The notes below the pieces were generated by a model. The model did no database searches, was not told the origin of the DNA, and saw only the letters and a program-made list of their open reading frames with translations. From Alkalidesulfovibrio alkalitolerans DSM 16529 (lineage in GTDB: Bacteria; Desulfobacterota; Desulfovibrionia; Desulfovibrionales; Desulfovibrionaceae): 64,000 nt of DNA. A program made the position numbers and the translations under genes. Numbering within the stretch: the stretch's first letter is position 1; each line of letters opens with the position of its first letter. The DNA lies in NCBI RefSeq assembly GCF_000422245.1, contig NZ_ATHI01000007.1:18973-82972 (forward strand), written 5' to 3'. Positions 5,907-60,226 of the stretch are shown here, in pieces.

Positions 5907-8057
5907 ATGCGCTCCGCTTCGCGCGCCTTCGCCCAGGCCGCATGCCTTTTCGCGGCCTTTGCCGCATGCGTGGGGCTTCGCCTGCTTGAGGCGCCGCGCT
6001 GGTTCGCCCCGGAACTTCTTCTCGACGGGCAGCCGCTGATGAGCACCCACGATGCATATGCCTGGCTCGCCGGAGCCATGGGCGTCAACTTGCGCGGACA
6101 TGAGCCGCTGGCCGTCATCGTGGAACTCGTGAACGGTCTGACCGGCCTGAGTCCCGAAGCTATCGGCTTCTGGCTCCCGCCGCTGCTCGCTGCCTTGGCC
6201 GGACTCCCCTTCGTGCACCTGGCACACCGGCTGGGAATTCTCGCCTTTGGCTTTCCGGCCGCCGTGGTCGCGGGGTGCTCCCTTGGCTACGTCGTCCGCA
6301 CGCGCGTCGGGAGCCTGGACACAGATCCCTTTGCGCTGTTTTTTCCGCTTTTCCTGGCAGTGGAATTGTTCATCACACTTTCCCCTTTGCTTCGTGAAGT
6401 TTGGCGCGGTCCGGCTGAAAAGCCAGATGTACGTGGAGCGCCCGATCGTGTCTCTGTCGGTGCCTGCTTCGGTTCATTCGGCCTGGGGCTTTGGTGCATG
6501 GCGGGCGTGTGGCTGTATGCGGGCATGCGGCCCGTAATTACCATACTGCTTTGCTTCGCCGCGCTGCTCGGGGCGGCTTTGGGCCGTCCTCAGGTGCGTC
6601 CGTGGTCGGTGGTCCTGCCGCTTCTTCCGCTGGCCATGCTCGCGCTTGGTGGCGGGGCAGGGGTCGTAGTCGGCCTGGGCTTTGCGCTGGCGGTGTGGCG
6701 CAGGCCGGAACTGGGATTCTCGCGGCGGGCCGGATGGACGATAGCCGCCGCTCTCGCGCTGATGGTGGTGGTGTTCGGGTTTGAGATCGTGCGCGACATC
6801 GTCGTTCGTCTTGACTACTGGCTGTTCCCGGCGGCGGACGTTGTCGTGAGCGCAACCAACGGACCGAACCTGCCCTCGGTGCTACAGAGCATCCGCGAAG
6901 CGCAGTCCATGCCTCTTGTCGACGTCGCGCGATATCTTTCGGTCCATCCCGTCCTGACCATTGCCCTCGTGCTCGGGTACGCTTGGCTGGCGTTCAGGCG
7001 TCCGGCGGCGCTCGTGTTCGTACCGCTGCTTGCCCTTGGTCTGTGCGCCTCGATCCTTGGCGCGCGTTTCGTCATGTTTGGCGCGGCCGCGATGGGAGCG
7101 GGCGTCCTGGGGCTCGGGCTTTTGGCCCGCCGCTTCGTCCCGCGCGCCTGGGGCCGCTTTCCCCTGGCCGTCGCCCTCGCGGGGGCGATCCTTGTGCCCG
7201 CGACCCTTTTCATGGACAGGCTCAGGCCCGACCCCGTGCTCTCACCGCGCCATGCCGCCGCGCTCGCGGAAATCTCCAGCGTCACGCCGTCTTCCTCGTG
7301 GCTGTGGTTGTGGTGGGATTACGGCTATGCGGCCGAATTCTACGCCGAGCGCTTTCCCATCGCCAACGGCGCGCGCCACGATGCAAAGTGGCTCTACCCC
7401 CTGGCCGCCGTGCACGCAGGCAAGCCTTTCGAGGCCGCGAACCTGATGCGCTTCTTCGCCTTCTCCATGCAGGCCCAGGAGCGCGCCCTTTCCGAGCGGC
7501 CCGAGATATCCGGCAATCCGTCCTTCATTCACGAACGCACCCCGCCCATGACCGCTCTGGCAGGGCTGGACGGCCTCTCGGCCCAAGCCGAAGCGCAGGC
7601 CGTGGCGGACGGCAGGAGAAAGCCGGAAGGCGGCTACCCGGACCAGTATTTCGTGGTCTCCTGGGATACGCTTCGGCTCGCGGGCTGGATCATCCGTTTC
7701 GGCACGCGCAATCTGGCCGACGGCACCTTCGCTACGGGCGACGTGTCGCGGATTGAGGGCGACATGCGCGTGGACACCGAGCAGGGACTCCTGCATTCGC
7801 CCCTCGCCGGAACGTTGCCGCTGGCCAGCCTGGACGTGCTCGACGAGGCCGGGAACAGCGGCTTTTCCTGGCAGCGCGGTTCGGGCATGCACGTGGTCAT
7901 GAACAGGCAGACCCGCGAGGCTTTCATGATGGACGCAACGGCCTATGGAAGCGCTATGGTGCAACTGCTGGTCGGGGAGCCGAGCCGCTTCGCCCGGGAC
8001 TTCGAACTGGTGATCGACGCCGCGCCCTGGGCCAGGGTTTACCGCCTGCTGCCTTAG
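5907..8057 (+). CDS. STT3/PglB-type oligosaccharyltransferase
   Basis: Large polytopic membrane protein, 716 residues. The N-terminal two thirds hold about a dozen hydrophobic segments; the C-terminal third is soluble. The first loop has THDAYAW, where the catalytic Asp of STT3 sits, the second loop region has GSLDTDPF (a DxD-like pair), and SIREAQ fits the later Glu motif. WWDYG, the signature that reads the acceptor sequon, is at residues 469-473 within SWLWLWWDYGYAAEFY. The family moves a lipid-linked oligosaccharide onto Asn in N-x-S/T sequons at the periplasmic face. No glycan-assembly or flippase genes lie next to it. GGAGAAG nine bases before the ATG at 5907 favours this start; an ATG at 5889 is in frame but has no ribosome-binding site. 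Confidence 0.93.
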   Translation: MRSASRAFAQAACLFAAFAACVGLRLLEAPRWFAPELLLDGQPLMSTHDAYAWLAGAMGVNLRGHEPLAVIVELVNGLTGLSPEAIGFWLPPLLAALAGLPFVHLAHRLGILAFGFPAAVVAGCSLGYVVRTRVGSLDTDPFALFFPLFLAVELFITLSPLLREVWRGPAEKPDVRGAPDRVSVGACFGSFGLGLWCMAGVWLYAGMRPVITILLCFAALLGAALGRPQVRPWSVVLPLLPLAMLALGGGAGVVVGLGFALAVWRRPELGFSRRAGWTIAAALALMVVVFGFEIVRDIVVRLDYWLFPAADVVVSATNGPNLPSVLQSIREAQSMPLVDVARYLSVHPVLTIALVLGYAWLAFRRPAALVFVPLLALGLCASILGARFVMFGAAAMGAGVLGLGLLARRFVPRAWGRFPLAVALAGAILVPATLFMDRLRPDPVLSPRHAAALAEISSVTPSSSWLWLWWDYGYAAEFYAERFPIANGARHDAKWLYPLAAVHAGKPFEAANLMRFFAFSMQAQERALSERPEISGNPSFIHERTPPMTALAGLDGLSAQAEAQAVADGRRKPEGGYPDQYFVVSWDTLRLAGWIIRFGTRNLADGTFATGDVSRIEGDMRVDTEQGLLHSPLAGTLPLASLDVLDEAGNSGFSWQRGSGMHVVMNRQTREAFMMDATAYGSAMVQLLVGEPSRFARDFELVIDAAPWARVYRLLP

Positions 8058-8568
8058 CAGATCGCCCCCAAAACGCCGCATGTCGCGTCGCCGCGACGAA
8101 TTCGAGCCTCCGCGCAGACAACCTCCCGTCGTGCTTGATTTTTTTCGCGCGGCCTTGCATCTGGCGCTTGTAGAACGGCCTGAGAAGCGGAGTTTATCGA
8201 CTTCTTCCTGGCAGGCCAGCGACATTTGCTCCACTCCAATTTCAATCAAAGCAACAAGGCGAAACGAAAGGTGCGACGAAAGCAATTTTGTCGTAACGGC
8301 TTGCAGCATTTCTCTATTTCCATCTATCCATGCGATGGAACAATTGGTGCTGGCTCGTCGAGCATCTCTGAAGGCATATCTTGGATTCATTGTACCATTT
8401 TGTGAATTCGATGGTGAATATTCGTCATAATGTCGGTCGGATTGTCGGCAGCCTGCCGACTCTATCAATCAGTTGTCCAGTCCTTTGAATTTTTCGACTA
8501 TCAGTAGATTCTATCCGAATTAATATTTGCCTCGAATTCTATCTATGCTACATGCCGCGTAAGAACCT
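8058..8568 (+). other. AT-richer spacer upstream of the selenopeptide gene
   Basis: No credible gene is seen in these about 510 bases. From about 8200 the composition turns clearly AT-rich compared with both flanks, unlike nearly everything else in the window. A seven-base-pair hairpin (GTCGGCA / TGCCGAC, 8444-8450 and 8454-8460) stands in the middle and could end transcription from the oligosaccharyltransferase gene. Several promoter-like hexamers lie between 8480 and 8555 (for example TTGAAT at 8485 and TATGCT at 8544), but none forms a convincing pair with standard spacing. It most likely holds the promoter of the peptide gene; acquisition from elsewhere is an alternative reading of the base composition. 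Confidence 0.5.
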
Positions 8569-8592
8569 GGGCCAGCCATGGGGGGCTGGCCC
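8569..8592 (+). promoter_or_regulatory. Leader hairpin just before the selenopeptide ribosome-binding site
   Basis: A perfect nine-base-pair inverted repeat, GGGCCAGCC (8569-8577) and GGCTGGCCC (8584-8592), with a six-base loop. It ends nine bases before the Shine-Dalgarno AGGAGG at 8602-8607. Without a T tract it is not a classic terminator. It may protect the 5' end of the message or control translation. Its arms share the core GGCCAGCC/GGCTGGCC with the hairpin after the peptide gene and with the bases just before the maturase start. Confidence 0.55.
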
Positions 8593-8614
8593 GTACGCAC
8601 CAGGAGGTGTCCCG

Positions 8615-8911
8615 ATGAATCCCAAGAATCTCAAGAAGTACCTTGCCTGCCTGACCCTGGCCGGCCTGGTTGCCACCAGCACCGGTGTGGCGCTCGGGAC
8701 CAGCGGTTGAGGCGGCAGCCGTCCGGACGCCGGGAGCGCCCAACCCGCCATATCGCCCGAGGAACAGACACTCATGGAGCAGTTGAAGGCCAAGGAAAAG
8801 GCTGGCAACATCACGGAGGAAGAAAAGCAGCAGCTCGAGGAGTTGAAGAAGCGCATAAAGTCGAAAGACAAGCCGGCCCCCAGCGGCTGAGGCGGCGCAC
8901 CCAAGAACTAG
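8615..8911 (+). CDS. Selenocysteine-containing precursor peptide (two in-frame TGA), radical SAM target
   Basis: 98 codons from ATG at 8615 to TAG at 8909-8911 if the TGA codons at 8708-8710 (codon 32) and 8888-8890 (codon 92) are read as selenocysteine. AGGAGG lies seven bases before the ATG. The N-terminus (MNPKNLKKYLACLTLAGLVA) is basic then hydrophobic, like a signal or leader region. Residues about 50-87 are a charged, helix-like Lys/Glu/Gln stretch. Both TGA codons sit in the same setting, S-G-U-G-G, inside a 17-base near-repeat (8700-8716 and 8880-8896) exactly 60 codons apart. A radical SAM/SPASM gene follows. The arrangement matches what I recall of the TIGRFAMs selenobiotic radical SAM target peptide family; that memory could not be checked. 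A conventional gene caller would miss or split it. Read as two nonsense mutations it would be a pseudogene, which the duplicated context makes unlikely. Confidence 0.85.
8714..8740 (+). promoter_or_regulatory. Possible SECIS-like hairpin for the first TGA
   Basis: Downstream of TGA 8708-8710 a bulged hairpin can be drawn. GGC 8714-8716 pairs with GCC 8738-8740, and GC 8718-8719 with GC 8736-8737. An inner stem of TCCGG 8722-8726 pairs with CCGGG 8730-8734 (one wobble) around loop ACG. The loop begins 17 bases after the TGA, at the short end of the range accepted for bacterial SECIS elements. The fold was drawn by eye and is weaker than the one for the second TGA. Confidence 0.4.
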
Positions 8912-8926
8912 CGCGGTCCGCGCTAG
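8908..8926 (+). promoter_or_regulatory. SECIS-like hairpin after the second TGA, spanning the TAG stop
   Basis: A perfect inverted repeat, CTAGCGC (8908-8914) and GCGCTAG (8920-8926), encloses the loop GGTCC. One further G-C pair can close the loop to three bases. The loop starts 24 bases after TGA 8888-8890, within the spacing known for bacterial SECIS elements, and GGUCC differs by one base from the GGUCU apical loop that SelB reads in E. coli fdhF. The peptide's TAG stop (8909-8911) is inside the 5' arm. Confidence 0.6.
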
Positions 8927-8933
8927 GTCAATC

Positions 8934-8972
8934 AGGCCAGCCGTCCGGGTAGGGATACGGGACGGCTGGCCT
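8934..8972 (+). terminator. Strong hairpin between the selenopeptide and maturase genes (attenuator-like)
   Basis: Perfect 13-base-pair stem, AGGCCAGCCGTCC (8934-8946) with GGACGGCTGGCCT (8960-8972), and a 13-base loop. No T tract follows, so complete rho-independent termination is unlikely. Such a structure between a precursor gene and its enzyme gene usually lowers downstream expression or stabilises the upstream message. The sequence CGGCTGGCC of its 3' arm recurs at 9023-9031, directly before the maturase ATG, so the 5' arm could pair with either. Confidence 0.6.
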
Positions 8973-9033
8973 CGGAAGCGCATCCCGCCGCCGTTCCGCC
9001 GGCGGCAGTCATCTTTCAAACCCGGCTGGCCAT

Positions 9034-10473
9034 ATGACCGTCATCCAAGCCCTGAACGCCCTGCGTGATGCCCTGGCCCGGACTGCGGCCCAGGGTGCCG
9101 ATATGCCCGCCGATCCCGAAACGCCGCTCCTCAACCCGAGTCTGAGCCTGCACGAAGCCGCGTTCACGGGGCTGTCGGCACGGCTGGAGCACTCCCGCTC
9201 CCCGGAGCCCGAACCGGGACGCGAACTGCTGCTGGTCTGGTTCGATCCCGGCCAGGGGCGAAGCCTGGCCAAGGCTGCCACGGACGCCGACCTGCTGGCC
9301 CTGAAGATTGTGGCCGAGGGTACGGGCATGCGCCAGGCGGCCCGCGCCGCGGGCGTCAATCCGGCAGTCGTTCGTCTTGCCCTGCGGCAGGCCGCTCAGG
9401 CCGGCCTGATCCGCTTGCCTGCCTCCCGGCTGGTGCGCGAGAACGGTTTCTGCGATCATCCCGTGCCCGAGGACTTGGCCAGGGCTCAGGCCTTCACCTT
9501 GCAGTGGCACATCACCCAGGCCTGCGACCTGCATTGCCGACATTGCTACGACCGCTCCCCGCGCGCGGCCGTGAAACTCAAGCGCGGCCTGCGCGTGCTG
9601 GACCAGATGGCCGACTTCTGCGAGCAGCGCCACGTTCCGGGGCAGGTCAGTTTCAGCGGCGGAAACCCCTTCCTGCATCCCCACTTCGAGGATCTGTACG
9701 CTGCGGCCCTGGAGCGCGGACTGTCTCCGGCCATCCTGGGCAACCCGGTGTCCCGGGAGCGGCTTAGGGCCGTCTGTGACATGGCCCGGCCAGTGTTCTA
9801 TCAGGTAAGCCTGGAAGGGCTCCAGGAGCATAACGACTACATCCGCGGCCCCGGACACTTCCGCCGGACCCTGGAATTCCTGGACCTGTTGAAGGAGGAA
9901 GGGGTCTCTTCCATGGTCATGTTGACCCTGACCCGGGCCAATCAGGAGCAGGTTCTGCCCCTGGCGGAAACCTTGCGCCTCCGGACGGACCTCTTCACCT
10001 TCAACCGCCTGTCGCTCTTCGGCGAGGGCGCGGCCCTGGCCTGCGCCGACACAGCCTCCTACGGCGGCTTTCTGGACGCCTGTGTCGCGGCTGCCCAGGA
10101 CAACCCCGTCCTGGCCTTCAAGGACGGGCTGCTGAATCTGGCCCTGGAGCGCCGCGGGGAGCGGCTCTTTGCCGGTTGTGCGGGACACGGCTGCGGCGCG
10201 GCTTTCAGTTTCCTGGCCGTGTTGCCGGATGGCGAGGTGCATGCCTGCCGGAAACTGCCCTCGGCCCTGGGCAGCCTGGCTGAACACAGTCTGGCGGAGA
10301 TCTACGATTCCCCGGCTGCCAGGGAATTCCGTCGAGGCGCGAGCGCCTGCCGCTCCTGCGTCCACAAACCCCGCTGCGGCGGCTGCCTGGCCGTGACCGC
10401 AGGCCTGGGCCTGAACCCCCTACAGGATCGCGACCCCTACTGCTTTCGCCAGAACCAGGGTCTATCGTCGTAA
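9034..10473 (+). CDS. Radical SAM/SPASM peptide maturase paired with the selenopeptide
   Basis: 479 residues. Residues about 65-128 look like a winged helix-turn-helix (LLALKIVAEGTGMRQAARAA, then VVRLALRQAAQAGLI), possibly a RiPP recognition element. The radical SAM core starts with C164-x3-C168-x2-C171 (CDLHCRHC), ligands of the catalytic 4Fe-4S cluster, followed by GGNP at 209-212, equivalent to the GGEP motif. The C-terminus is a SPASM-like auxiliary-cluster domain: C382, C387, C405, then C439-x2-C442-x5-C448-x2-C451 and C470. Family logic: SAM is cleaved to a 5'-deoxyadenosyl radical that modifies a side chain of the precursor, here plausibly at or near selenocysteine (inference). There is no clear Shine-Dalgarno before the ATG and no better in-frame start nearby, so translation may be weak or controlled by RNA structure. 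Matches my memory of the selenobiotic-family maturase. Confidence 0.92.
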   Translation: MTVIQALNALRDALARTAAQGADMPADPETPLLNPSLSLHEAAFTGLSARLEHSRSPEPEPGRELLLVWFDPGQGRSLAKAATDADLLALKIVAEGTGMRQAARAAGVNPAVVRLALRQAAQAGLIRLPASRLVRENGFCDHPVPEDLARAQAFTLQWHITQACDLHCRHCYDRSPRAAVKLKRGLRVLDQMADFCEQRHVPGQVSFSGGNPFLHPHFEDLYAAALERGLSPAILGNPVSRERLRAVCDMARPVFYQVSLEGLQEHNDYIRGPGHFRRTLEFLDLLKEEGVSSMVMLTLTRANQEQVLPLAETLRLRTDLFTFNRLSLFGEGAALACADTASYGGFLDACVAAAQDNPVLAFKDGLLNLALERRGERLFAGCAGHGCGAAFSFLAVLPDGEVHACRKLPSALGSLAEHSLAEIYDSPAAREFRRGASACRSCVHKPRCGGCLAVTAGLGLNPLQDRDPYCFRQNQGLSS

Positions 10474-10577
10474 TGGCAACAGTCTGCGGATCGTTGCACT
10501 TGACGACCGCCTGGAGAACACGGCGGGCGGCCGTTTCGCCATGGTTCGTTCCTTTCCGGTGATGACGGGAGCATTAA

Positions 10578-10613
10578 AAAAGCCCCGGAAGCGGTATCGC
10601 ATCCGGGGCTTTT
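10578..10613. terminator. Bidirectional terminator between the maturase gene and prmA
   Basis: AAAAGCCCCGGA (10578-10589) pairs with TCCGGGGCTTTT (10602-10613) around a 12-base loop. The A run on the left and T run on the right make it a rho-independent terminator in both directions, which suits the two convergent genes that end on either side. Confidence 0.88.
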
Positions 10614-10646
10614 CGCAAAAAGCAAAATGGATTTGGCGGGTGCGGG

Positions 10647-11507
10647 TCAACTCTTGGCAGCGGTGTCGAAGACCAGGGCCGCCCACTCCCCCGAATGGCG
10701 GAAGACAGGGGCGGGAAGTCCTCGCCGCCCGTAGGCCGCGGCTACTCCGGGGGCCTGCTCGGTCAGCACGCCCGAGAGCACGAGCACTCCGTTCGGCGCA
10801 AGACGCGCCGCGATATCCGGGGCCAGGGCGATGAGCGGTCCGGAGAGGATGTTGGCCACCACCAGCCCGTAGCCGGGCTTTGGCCGCACGCTCTCCACGC
10901 CGCCCACGGCCAGGGCCACGCGGTCCGAAACGTTGTTCGCGGCCAAGTTTTCCGTGGCGCAGGCCACGGCCTGGGGATCGATGTCCACGCCAACGCCGGA
11001 GAGTCCGAGCAGCGCCAAGCCGATGGCCAGGATGCCCGAGCCCGTGCCGATGTCGAGAAACCGTGTGTCCGGGCCGATCCGGCCGCCTTGCGACAACTCG
11101 CCGATGGCTTCCAGGCAAAGCGCCGTGGTGGGGTGGTGGCCGGTGCCGAAGGCCATCTTGGGCTCGATGACGATGCTCTTGCGGCCAGGGCCGCCCGAGG
11201 CCGCGAGCCACGGAGGCAGCACCTCGAACGCCTCCCCGGCCATGACCGGGGTGAAGAATTCTCGCCAGGCAAGAGCCCAGTTCTGCTCGTCGATCTCGCT
11301 CACGCGCACGGCGCTGTCCGGGAACTCCCGGCTTAGCAAGGCCACAAGCTCGTCGGCCAGCGGGTGGTCGTCGATGTGGAAGGTGAACCAGGTGCGGCCG
11401 TCCACGGGCGAAAGGGACTCCTCCCAGCCCTGGGGTGCGCGGTTGGAGAGCAAGGTCACGGCGCGCTCGTAAGCGGATTCGGCCACGGAGAATTCTATGC
11501 GTTGCAC
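10647..11507 (-). CDS. prmA: Ribosomal protein L11 methyltransferase
   Basis: 286 residues, a SAM-dependent enzyme that methylates ribosomal protein L11. An N-terminal substrate-recognition part (about residues 1-115) precedes the methyltransferase core. Motif I is FLDIGTGSGILAIGLALLG, followed by VDIDPQAVACATENLAANNV; the catalytic loop region is VVANILSGPLIALAP, matching the N-[IV]-L motif of PrmA. Preceding MAFGTGHHPTTALCLEAI is the invariant PrmA block that contacts SAM. The gene lies 15 bases downstream of argD and is the last of a three-gene minus-strand run with argD and dut, ending at the shared terminator. Confidence 0.95.
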   Translation of the reverse strand: MQRIEFSVAESAYERAVTLLSNRAPQGWEESLSPVDGRTWFTFHIDDHPLADELVALLSREFPDSAVRVSEIDEQNWALAWREFFTPVMAGEAFEVLPPWLAASGGPGRKSIVIEPKMAFGTGHHPTTALCLEAIGELSQGGRIGPDTRFLDIGTGSGILAIGLALLGLSGVGVDIDPQAVACATENLAANNVSDRVALAVGGVESVRPKPGYGLVVANILSGPLIALAPDIAARLAPNGVLVLSGVLTEQAPGVAAAYGRRGLPAPVFRHSGEWAALVFDTAAKS

Positions 11508-58354: not shown

Positions 58355-60226
58355 TCAGCGGCGCTTGAAAAGGCGTTCGAGATCGGCGGCCGACAGGCGG
58401 ACGAGCGTCGGCCTGCCGTGCGGGCAGTTCTCGCGGCCGGGCGCGGCCAGCCAGGCCTCGATGAGCCCGAGCGCCTCGTCGCGGGCGAGCGGGGTGCCGG
58501 CCTTGAGCGCCGTCTTGCAGGAGAGCAGCACCCAAAGGTCTTCGAGCGATCCGGACTGGCCGCTCAGGGCGGCCTCGACGTACTCGCGCGCCGCGCCCGC
58601 CGTGAGCGAGGGCGGCGTGGACGTGATCCGCAAGAGGTCCGCGTCGGCGGACAGGCCGAAACCGAGCGAGCGAAGCTCCTGCCAGGCCTCTCCCAGCCGG
58701 GCGGCTTGGGACGGATGCAGCCGCATCTCGATGGGCAGGGCCAGCGGCATGGACTGGCCGCTCGTTCCCCGCTCGCGCATGGCCGCGTAGAGCACCCGTT
58801 CGTGCGCCGCGTGCTGGTCGAGGATGCCCAGGCTCCCGTCGGGCAGGGCCAGGAGCAGGTAGGTGGCCTCGATCTGGCCCAGGTAACGCATGCCGTGCAG
58901 CGAGGGGGCTGCCGTGCGTTCGGGAAATATCTCCGGGTCTCGGCGGGGCGCGGAGGCGCTTTGGGGGGGACGGTCGTTCTGAGGCGAGGTTTGGGCGTGT
59001 GTTGAGAAGTCCTGGTAGGGCGAGAACTTGGCCCGTTGGGCAAGGGGTTGGTGTGCGGGCAGGTCGAGGGAGGAAGGGCGATCCGCCGGGGCGCGGAGAA
59101 ACTCCGAGGGGCGGTCGGGTTGTGTCGCCTCGCCCCTGCGTGCGTATCCGAAGAGACCTTTTTTGTCCGCAGCGCGGCCGGCTTCGGGAATGCCTCGCGG
59201 CGCGAGGGCGTAGCCTGCGGGTGCGGAAGCGTCCAGGGCGTCGGCCAAGGCTTGGCGCACCAGCCTGAACACGGCTTGCTCGTCGCGGAAGCGTACTTCG
59301 AGCTTGGCCGGATGCACGTTCACGTCCACTTCCAGCGGATCGAGTTCGAGGAACAGCGTGAGTTGAGGGTATTCGCGGGCCAGCAGGCGGCCCTTGTAGG
59401 CCTCGCGGGCGGCGCTGGCGAGCAGTCTGTCCTGCACGGGGCGGCCGTTGACGAAGAAGAGCATGCGGTCGGGCCTGGCCTGGGCCTTGAGCGGGTTGCC
59501 CGCAAGTCCGCTAAGCCGCATTCCGTCCCGGGCGCGGTCGATCTCCATGAGCCCTTCGCAGATGGCCGGGGGCCAGAGTACGGCCAGACGGGCAAGCAAG
59601 GTCTGCCCGGCCGTGAAGCGGAAAAGCGAGCGGCCGCCCGAGGAGATGACGAAGCCCGTGTCCAGATGCGCCAAGGCCATGCGGGCCACAACCTCGTGGC
59701 AGCGTCTGGCCTCGGTGGCCTCGGTCTTGAGGAATTTCAGGCGGGCCGGGACGTTGGCGAACAGGTCGCGGATTTCAACGACCGTTCCTTTGGCCAAGGC
59801 TGCAGGCCGCACCTCGCCCAAGCGGCCGTGCTCCACGTCCAGGGCATACGCCTCGTCTCGCCCGGCACGCGAGGTGATGGTCAAGCGCGAGACCGAGGCA
59901 ATGCTCGCCAGGGCCTCGCCGCGAAAACCGAAACTGGCCACGCGCATCAGGTCGTGAAACGAGGCGATCTTGCTTGTGGCGTGCCGCGTCACGGCCAAGG
60001 GCAACTGGTCCGGCGGAATGCCCGCGCCGTCGTCGCTGATGCGGATGAGCCCCTGGCCGCCGCGCTCGATGTCGACGGTGATGCGTCTGGCGCCGGCGTC
60101 CAGGGCGTTTTCGACGAGTTCCTTGACCACGCTCGACGGGCGTTCGACCACCTCGCCAGCAGCGATCTGGTCGGCCAGTTCGGAGGGCAGGATGCGGATT
60201 TCTGCGGATTCGTCAGCGCGGGACAT
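58355..60226 (-). CDS. mutL: DNA mismatch repair protein MutL
   Basis: 623 residues. The N-terminal GHKL ATPase is canonical: LPSELADQIAAGEVVERPSS, VKELVENALDAGARRITVD, SDDGAGIPPDQL, RHATSKI and SFGFRGEALASIASVS. A Pro/Ser/Arg-rich linker (about 330-430) joins the C-terminal dimerisation domain. There, LGILDQHAAHERVLYAAM resembles the endonuclease motif D-Q-H-A-x2-E-x4-E, but the final Glu is Ala, so nicking activity is uncertain. A GRENCPHGRPTLVRLS segment matches the other metal-site block. The chosen ATG sits 13 bases after the lptD stop. mutS is not in the window. Confidence 0.93.
   Translation of the reverse strand: MSRADESAEIRILPSELADQIAAGEVVERPSSVVKELVENALDAGARRITVDIERGGQGLIRISDDGAGIPPDQLPLAVTRHATSKIASFHDLMRVASFGFRGEALASIASVSRLTITSRAGRDEAYALDVEHGRLGEVRPAALAKGTVVEIRDLFANVPARLKFLKTEATEARRCHEVVARMALAHLDTGFVISSGGRSLFRFTAGQTLLARLAVLWPPAICEGLMEIDRARDGMRLSGLAGNPLKAQARPDRMLFFVNGRPVQDRLLASAAREAYKGRLLAREYPQLTLFLELDPLEVDVNVHPAKLEVRFRDEQAVFRLVRQALADALDASAPAGYALAPRGIPEAGRAADKKGLFGYARRGEATQPDRPSEFLRAPADRPSSLDLPAHQPLAQRAKFSPYQDFSTHAQTSPQNDRPPQSASAPRRDPEIFPERTAAPSLHGMRYLGQIEATYLLLALPDGSLGILDQHAAHERVLYAAMRERGTSGQSMPLALPIEMRLHPSQAARLGEAWQELRSLGFGLSADADLLRITSTPPSLTAGAAREYVEAALSGQSGSLEDLWVLLSCKTALKAGTPLARDEALGLIEAWLAAPGRENCPHGRPTLVRLSAADLERLFKRR

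Follow-up and report, generated by a model that had tools for sequence, protein, structure and literature searches.

A predicted two-selenocysteine SbtA precursor gene and its adjoining SbtM maturase gene in Alkalidesulfovibrio alkalitolerans DSM 16529

In this study, we show through sequence comparison that a small gene of Alkalidesulfovibrio alkalitolerans DSM 16529 and the radical SAM gene that follows it are an SbtA-SbtM RiPP system, an identity that had not been given in the first-pass annotation of this DNA. The small gene, sbtA, occupies 8615..8911 of the stretch of 64,000 nucleotides that was analysed (hereafter the window) and lies on the forward strand, as do the genes, codons and SECIS-like hairpins of the locus for which coordinates are given below and the inverted repeat at 8935..8971. 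We hold with high confidence that it encodes an SbtA precursor in which two UGA codons are likely read as selenocysteine (Sec) by means of their own SECIS-like hairpins, and that its partner SbtM is predicted to form selenooxazoles on it.

The first-pass annotation described a frame running from ATG 8615 to TAG 8909 and broken by TGA at codons 32 and 92 only, with a well-spaced AGGAGG in front and a radical SAM gene on its 3' side, and each of these statements held. There is no internal TAA or TAG, the ribosome-binding site AGGAGG as read from the sequence lies at 8602..8607 with the ATG 7 nt further on, and the 3' gene, sbtM (9034..10473), matches TIGR04082 as well as the Radical_SAM and SPASM models. 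With TGA read as U, the translation of 98 residues is MNPKNLKKYLACLTLAGLVATSTGVALGTSGUGGSRPDAGSAQPAISPEEQTLMEQLKAKEKAGNITEEEKQQLEELKKRIKSKDKPAPSGUGGAPKN, in which SGUGG stands at residues 30-34 and 90-94 and agrees with the core motif SG[U/C]G of the family. The two predicted Sec codons, assigned from the sequence and the family motif, are UGA 32 (8708..8710), within SGUGG, and UGA 92 (8888..8890), within the C-terminal SGUGGAPKN; both TGAs are contained in a 17-nt direct repeat (CCAGCGGTTGAGGCGGC / CCAGCGGCTGAGGCGGC), the copies of which are 16/17 identical and 180 nt apart. A curated model exists for SbtA-type genes, TIGR04081, named 'SbtA family thio(seleno)oxazole RiPP natural product precursor' in NCBIfam, and the leader (residues 1-26) scored 38.6 bits against its cut-off of 30.5. 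No second SbtA exceeding this cut-off was found in the whole genome, the gene at 8615-8911 being the sole match, and because the leader exceeds the cut-off as the only such match in the genome, the open frame is more than a chance event.

The sbtM gene begins 122 nt beyond the sbtA stop, and thus adjoins the precursor gene as expected for this family. It encodes a putative radical SAM/SPASM maturase of 479 aa that passes the Pfam cut-offs for Radical_SAM and SPASM and scored 617.7 bits (cut-off 350) over model positions 46-516 of 516 against TIGR04082, the NCBIfam model for 'thio(seleno)oxazole modification radical SAM maturase SbtM'. In an alignment of 20 SbtM proteins, the window's included, the cluster-binding cysteines C164, C168 and C171 (CxxxCxxC) are invariant, and so are C382, C387, C405, C439, C442, C448, C451 and C470 of the SPASM region. 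The N-terminus is short, since the match starts at model position 46; the same is seen in some relatives, including a metagenomic protein (P0003) with 90% identity.

Sec insertion at both UGAs, as claimed in the first-pass annotation, is likely and well supported by the Sec genes, the Sec- or Cys-containing relatives, the retention of the C-terminal part and the SECIS-like hairpins. Firstly, the genome contains the machinery, with scores of 613.8 bits for selA, 389.7 for selB, 346.4 for selD and 88.8 for tRNA-Sec, each above its cut-off. Secondly, relatives carry either Sec or Cys at the corresponding position of the SG[UC]G motif. Thirdly, the sequence beyond the first TGA is conserved, inasmuch as a GAGS-type tail and the C-terminal SGUGG end match the family pattern. 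These are the computational checks that the first-pass annotation had proposed, and the Sec reading withstood all three. As a separate observation, the selD gene of this genome (L018, G000:C6:15265-16185) itself has one in-frame TGA; Sec-containing SelD is a known kind of selenoprotein. The Sec insertion element of the precursor has been placed directly after the TGA, according to the part of PMC11002830 available to us, which cites Lewis et al. (2021). In the window's gene, Sec would be inserted at each UGA through its own downstream SECIS-like hairpin.

The family is in line with this arrangement. We surveyed the best simple hairpin at +9 to +48 after each of 211 counted UGAs and expressed it as z against shuffles; z averaged -3.01 over the 141 internal UGAs and -3.43 over the 70 terminal ones, whereas the corresponding means were -0.28 at Cys codons (61) and -0.42 at positions within leaders (141). 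A G occurred in the first two loop bases at 96% of internal and 99% of terminal sites, against 59% of Cys codons and 51% of leader positions. The loop started mostly 17 or 20 nt after internal UGAs and 19-22 nt after terminal ones, with CGUGA, AGGUA, CGGGA, AGGUG, GGU and GUU as common loops. Covariation was seen at 6/6 pairs in an alignment of 65 internal hairpins (A2) and at 7/8 pairs in one of 16 terminal hairpins (A3), slid controls being far lower. Apart from the window's own, there are 140 internal sites, of which A2 holds the 65 chosen by the rule that the hairpin is found in that register, and A3 holds 16 of the 69 terminal sites outside the window (17 are in that register, of which L161 was omitted), so that the pairing percentages of both alignments lean towards structure because the sites were picked by hairpin register. 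The z-scores above and a comparison of the register over all 141 internal sites are free of this selection. Of the 141 internal sites, 105 form all six pairs, 21 form five and 15 fewer, and five of six pairs were reached by 1 of 68 Cys sites.

Covariance models for internal (R1) and terminal (R2) hairpins were built from relatives only, the window being excluded, and were applied to all 64 kb with filtering disabled. The top R1 match, at 8708-8745, scored 22.6 bits (E 0.00061), ahead of a second at 15.4 bits (E 0.04), and the top R2 match, at 8888-8935, scored 29.4 bits (E 0.00015), ahead of a second at 12.7 bits (E 0.47); these E-values are rough. The second R1 match, at 59614, was set aside as chance, as its hairpin is truncated and it falls within an ORF on the opposite strand that looks MutL-like by eye. 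An Rfam scan of 7500-11000 returned no known SECIS family, its four matches up to E 5 including no SECIS.

Each of the two UGAs is thus followed by a SECIS-type hairpin, as in other members, though the first is weak by structure alone. The hairpin of UGA 92 (8908..8926; R2 top match) has 8 bp and the loop GUC, was equalled by 13 of 2000 shuffles, and overlaps the TAG stop, which is spanned in the same way by many terminal hairpins of relatives. The hairpin of UGA 32 (8725..8741; R1 top match) makes five of the six family pairs, with an A.C mismatch at the fourth, around the loop CGGGA, the third commonest internal loop of the family. When its own sequence was shuffled, five pairs were still reached in 216 of 5000 cases, a free hairpin search after UGA 32 preferred another hairpin that did not stand out from shuffles (905 of 2000 were as good), and when 53 nt were folded from each UGA against dinucleotide shuffles, z was 0.47 for UGA 32 (128 of 200 as good) and -0.92 for UGA 92 (25 of 200). 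Its R1 score ranks 68th of the 97 matches listed from 35 sources, many of the better ones being training sites of R1. In view of these shuffle, search and folding results, structure by itself argues only modestly for a SECIS at UGA 32, and the rest is carried by sequence context and family.

Given the mismatch in its hairpin, Sec insertion at codon 32 is perhaps less efficient. Taken further, UGA 32 could be mainly a true stop, which would yield mostly a leader fragment of 31 residues with occasional read-through past a weakened first SECIS. The mismatched pair, the low model score and a fold stability not beyond that of shuffles all fit such a reading, but a dead tail would be expected to lose the DAGSA motif, the charged linker, the C-terminal SGUGG end and the strong second SECIS, all of which are kept. 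Moreover, the window's site is one of the 21 internal family sites that form five of the six pairs, and others form fewer. We therefore regard a mainly terminating UGA 32 as unlikely and retain the reading in which Sec is inserted at both codons.

With regard to the chemistry, the accessible part of PMC11002830, citing Lewis et al. (2021), states that SbtM removes four hydrogens from both Cys and Sec substrates, and that the Cys product was identified as a thiooxazole by NMR. By extension, SbtM of the window is predicted to oxidise each Gly-Sec of SbtA to a selenooxazole ring. The enzyme could instead install a thioether (sactionine or ranthionine), as the maturase is of SPASM type and its C-terminus is rich in Cys. 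This we consider very improbable, in view of the thiooxazole formed by the SbtM studied (PMC11002830, in the part available) and of the model scores: among the best 25 of 63 families, the StsB, AlbA and PapB models gave 59.1, 42.3 and 42.7 bits (cut-offs 625, 850 and 340) against 617.7 bits for SbtM, and the identification as a sactipeptide or ranthipeptide maturase was accordingly rejected. The idea that the TGAs are read not as Sec but as Trp or through a suppressor, or that the frame is fortuitous, found no point in its favour and is most improbable, as the standard bacterial code gives complete neighbouring family-matched genes, sbtM included, the motif contains Cys in relatives, and both the SECIS-like hairpins and the Sec machinery are present. 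We thus continue with sbtA as the gene of a probable two-Sec precursor of a (seleno)oxazole peptide.

The relatives on which these comparisons depend were collected by scanning named-genome contigs with the alignment of 20 SbtM proteins, which left 80 loci of 249 stretches encoding an SbtM relative, and a leader profile was run on 112 sources. Of the 80 named-genome loci, 66 yielded SbtA-like ORFs with this profile, as did 30 further loci and the window; the other 14 of the 80 yielded none, three of them being on contigs shorter than 5 kb. The 110 SbtA-like ORFs were reduced to 96 distinct ones from 89 loci by removal of duplicates and of two ORFs below 20 bits (in L151 and L160); because nearly identical ORFs (L154-L156, for example) were retained, the events counted are not independent of one another. 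A UGA was counted as Sec by a hand-made rule on the two residues before it and the one after it, one ambiguous terminal UGA of L062 was dropped by hand, and the Cys set includes some lipobox-like cysteines. Counted in this way, the 96 ORFs hold no Sec in 13 cases, one in 10, two in 30, three in 33, four in nine and six in one, so at least one motif UGA is present in 83 and at least two in 73. The first-pass annotation held double-Sec small peptides to be rare, which fails within the SbtA family, where the two UGAs of the window's gene are common. The residues SG directly precede U at 136 of the 211 family sites. Cys-only SbtA members exist as well (for example L121, L095 and L085), seven ORFs mix Sec and Cys motifs, and in L153 and L161 Cys motifs are numerous and the only Sec stands in the final motif (GGSGUGK). 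The ORF with six motif UGAs is that of a Desulfofustis sp. PB-SRB1 MAG (L135:4354-4725). As for distribution, within the taxonomic family to which the window belongs, SbtM exceeds its cut-off in 3 of 149 genomes, and the SbtA leader does so in 26 of 297 genomes of the phylum sample, the window's genome being included in both.

A short tail of the type GAGST or SAVST recurs about +5 to +9 after internal Sec residues, the version in the window's SbtA being DAGSA. Using a pattern written post hoc, after inspection of the sequences, we found a GAGST/SAVS-type tail after 129 of 141 internal Sec versus 3 of the 65 Cys motifs that are followed by enough residues; within the seven mixed ORFs it followed all 7 Sec and one of the 22 Cys. 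Because it tracks internal Sec and hardly ever Cys, the tail is likely the coded footprint of the SECIS, and since its codons coincide with the position of the hairpin, it would be kept for the RNA rather than for the enzyme. In eleven ORFs (L022, L069, L088, L108, L124, L135, L141, L142, L146, L148 and L151) the distance between two Sec is 3 to 6 codons; the best hairpin is one and the same for Sec 36 and Sec 40 of L135, lying 29 and 17 nt downstream, respectively. One SECIS may therefore serve two UGAs, and close UGAs in general may share one. Such a rule is testable at the level of the family, would separate peptide-level from RNA-level constraint, and would aid the annotation of SbtA genes cut short by gene finding that stops at TGA.

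The SbtA leaders are suggestive of export signals. In the window's gene, the leader (residues 1-26, 8615..8692, by TIGR04081 and hydropathy) is basic and then hydrophobic, resembling a signal peptide, and its best 12-residue hydropathy of 2.12 is close to the family median of 2.17; it contains neither a lipobox nor AxA. Of the 96 leaders, 33 contain a strict lipobox, against a mean of 8.8 and a maximum of 20 in 1000 shuffles, and 35 contain AxA, the latter being a raw count without a control. Such a leader would export SbtA, as in bufferins, and would be removed by a general signal peptidase, as we found no third gene adjoining most sbtM genes. In the search for one, 640 ORFs of at least 90 aa from the 80 named-genome loci were clustered, and the first seven clusters were inspected in detail. 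SbtM was recovered in 78 of 80 loci; the next cluster (22 loci, 28 ORFs) was chained through shared domains, with one scanned member having a GGDEF domain over the cut-off and others appearing by eye to be response regulators. Clusters three and four (9 and 7 loci) seemed by eye to reflect shared synteny, and an ABC-ATPase-like cluster, also named by eye, occurred in 6 of 80. Thus, among the clustered ORFs of these 80 loci there was no general third gene, be it a transporter or a peptidase.

By analogy with bufferins, the thiooxazoles of which sequester copper in the periplasm (PMC12452194, in the part available), the likeliest role of the product would be the binding of soft metals or metalloids outside the cytoplasm. 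An RND-permease-like ORF is found in 7 of 80 loci (L058, L073, L082, L095, L096, L106 and L131) and an adaptor-like ORF in 7 of 80, both occurring together in six; the best model was a CusA/CzcA heavy-metal RND for L095, over the cut-off, and for L073 and L058 as fragments, and a multidrug RND for the permease ORFs of L096, L131 and L082. These are raw counts without a background rate, and they are consequently a lead for a metal role and not evidence of one. Taken together, we tentatively propose, as a possibility below even chances, that SbtAs are exported and partly lipid-anchored metal binders with several selenooxazoles, the Sec-richest of bacterial selenoproteins (six in L135), in which the GAGST/SAVS tail would be a coded SECIS, one for each Sec and shared by close UGAs, and no peptide signal.

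The position of the two genes was compared with that in congeners. In one genome of the same genus (G071; L168), an STT3/PglB-like gene leads directly to a prmA-like gene and the aligned blocks are separated by 132 nt, whereas in the window about 2.7 kb separate the same two blocks, with sbtAM in between as part of some 2.6 kb of extra DNA (8058..10646, no strand assigned). TIGR04082 was not matched over its cut-off in the two other members of the genus searched (G071 and G043), and G043 gave no match to the STT3-like protein. The GC content is 0.508 for 8058-8614 versus 0.636 for the window. The sbtAM genes may have been gained here or lost in G071, and a single congener fits both. As further observations read from the sequence, a perfect 9-bp inverted repeat (GGGCCAGCC/GGCTGGCCC, 8569-8592) lies just 5' of the sbtA ribosome-binding site, a related perfect 12-bp inverted repeat (GGCCAGCCGTCC/GGACGGCTGGCC, 8935..8971) lies between sbtA and sbtM, and GGCTGGCC recurs ahead of the sbtM start. 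The repeats round sbtA are possibly regulatory, and the hairpin at 8935-8971 could putatively serve in regulation or processing.

By its sequence, sbtA is a good but ordinary member of a described family of selenium peptides. The family and the presence of two Sec within it are already known, as PMC11002830 and PMC13188914 cover both between them in the parts available: the latter, a 2026 review, has the entry 'Selenobacteriocin, TIGR04081, SGUG, 2, WP_074187118.1' and describes 119 prokaryotic families, most with one Sec and a small subset with 2-3, multiple Sec also occurring in some archaeal FrhD/VhuD. The SbtA members with four to six Sec exceed the range of 2-3 given for this subset in the consulted part of PMC13188914. 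In the literature searched, we found no mention of TIGR04082, and in the accessible parts of PMC11002830 and PMC13188914, through which alone Lewis et al. (2021) is cited here, we did not meet the link between tail and SECIS, the shared SECIS, the four to six Sec or the signal-like leaders. The present work places a likely Sec gene in its proper family and removes the claim of rarity, and what should interest specialists lies at the level of the family, namely the footprint of the SECIS, its possible sharing, the members with four to six Sec and the signal-like leaders.

Among known systems, the closest are the thio(seleno)oxazole RiPPs of the SbtA/SbtM type (Lewis et al. 2021), for which the names selenobiotic and selenobacteriocin are in use as well and with which the window's genes share the leader, the SG-Sec-G core, the adjoining SbtM and the SECIS after the UGA, and from which they show no difference of kind; here there are two Sec, one off-consensus pair in the first SECIS and a short maturase N-terminus. 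Ranthipeptides and sactipeptides are likewise Cys peptides modified by a radical SAM/SPASM enzyme, but their products are thioethers, and the sbtM product falls far below the cut-offs of their maturases StsB, AlbA and PapB. Bufferins share the signal peptide-like leader and the formation of a chalcogeno-oxazole from Cys or Sec, which is predicted here; in bufferins, however, the ring is made on sulfur by a multinuclear iron enzyme (MNIO) and is reported to serve a copper role (PMC12452194, in the part available), whereas in A. alkalitolerans a radical SAM enzyme and selenium are predicted to take their place.
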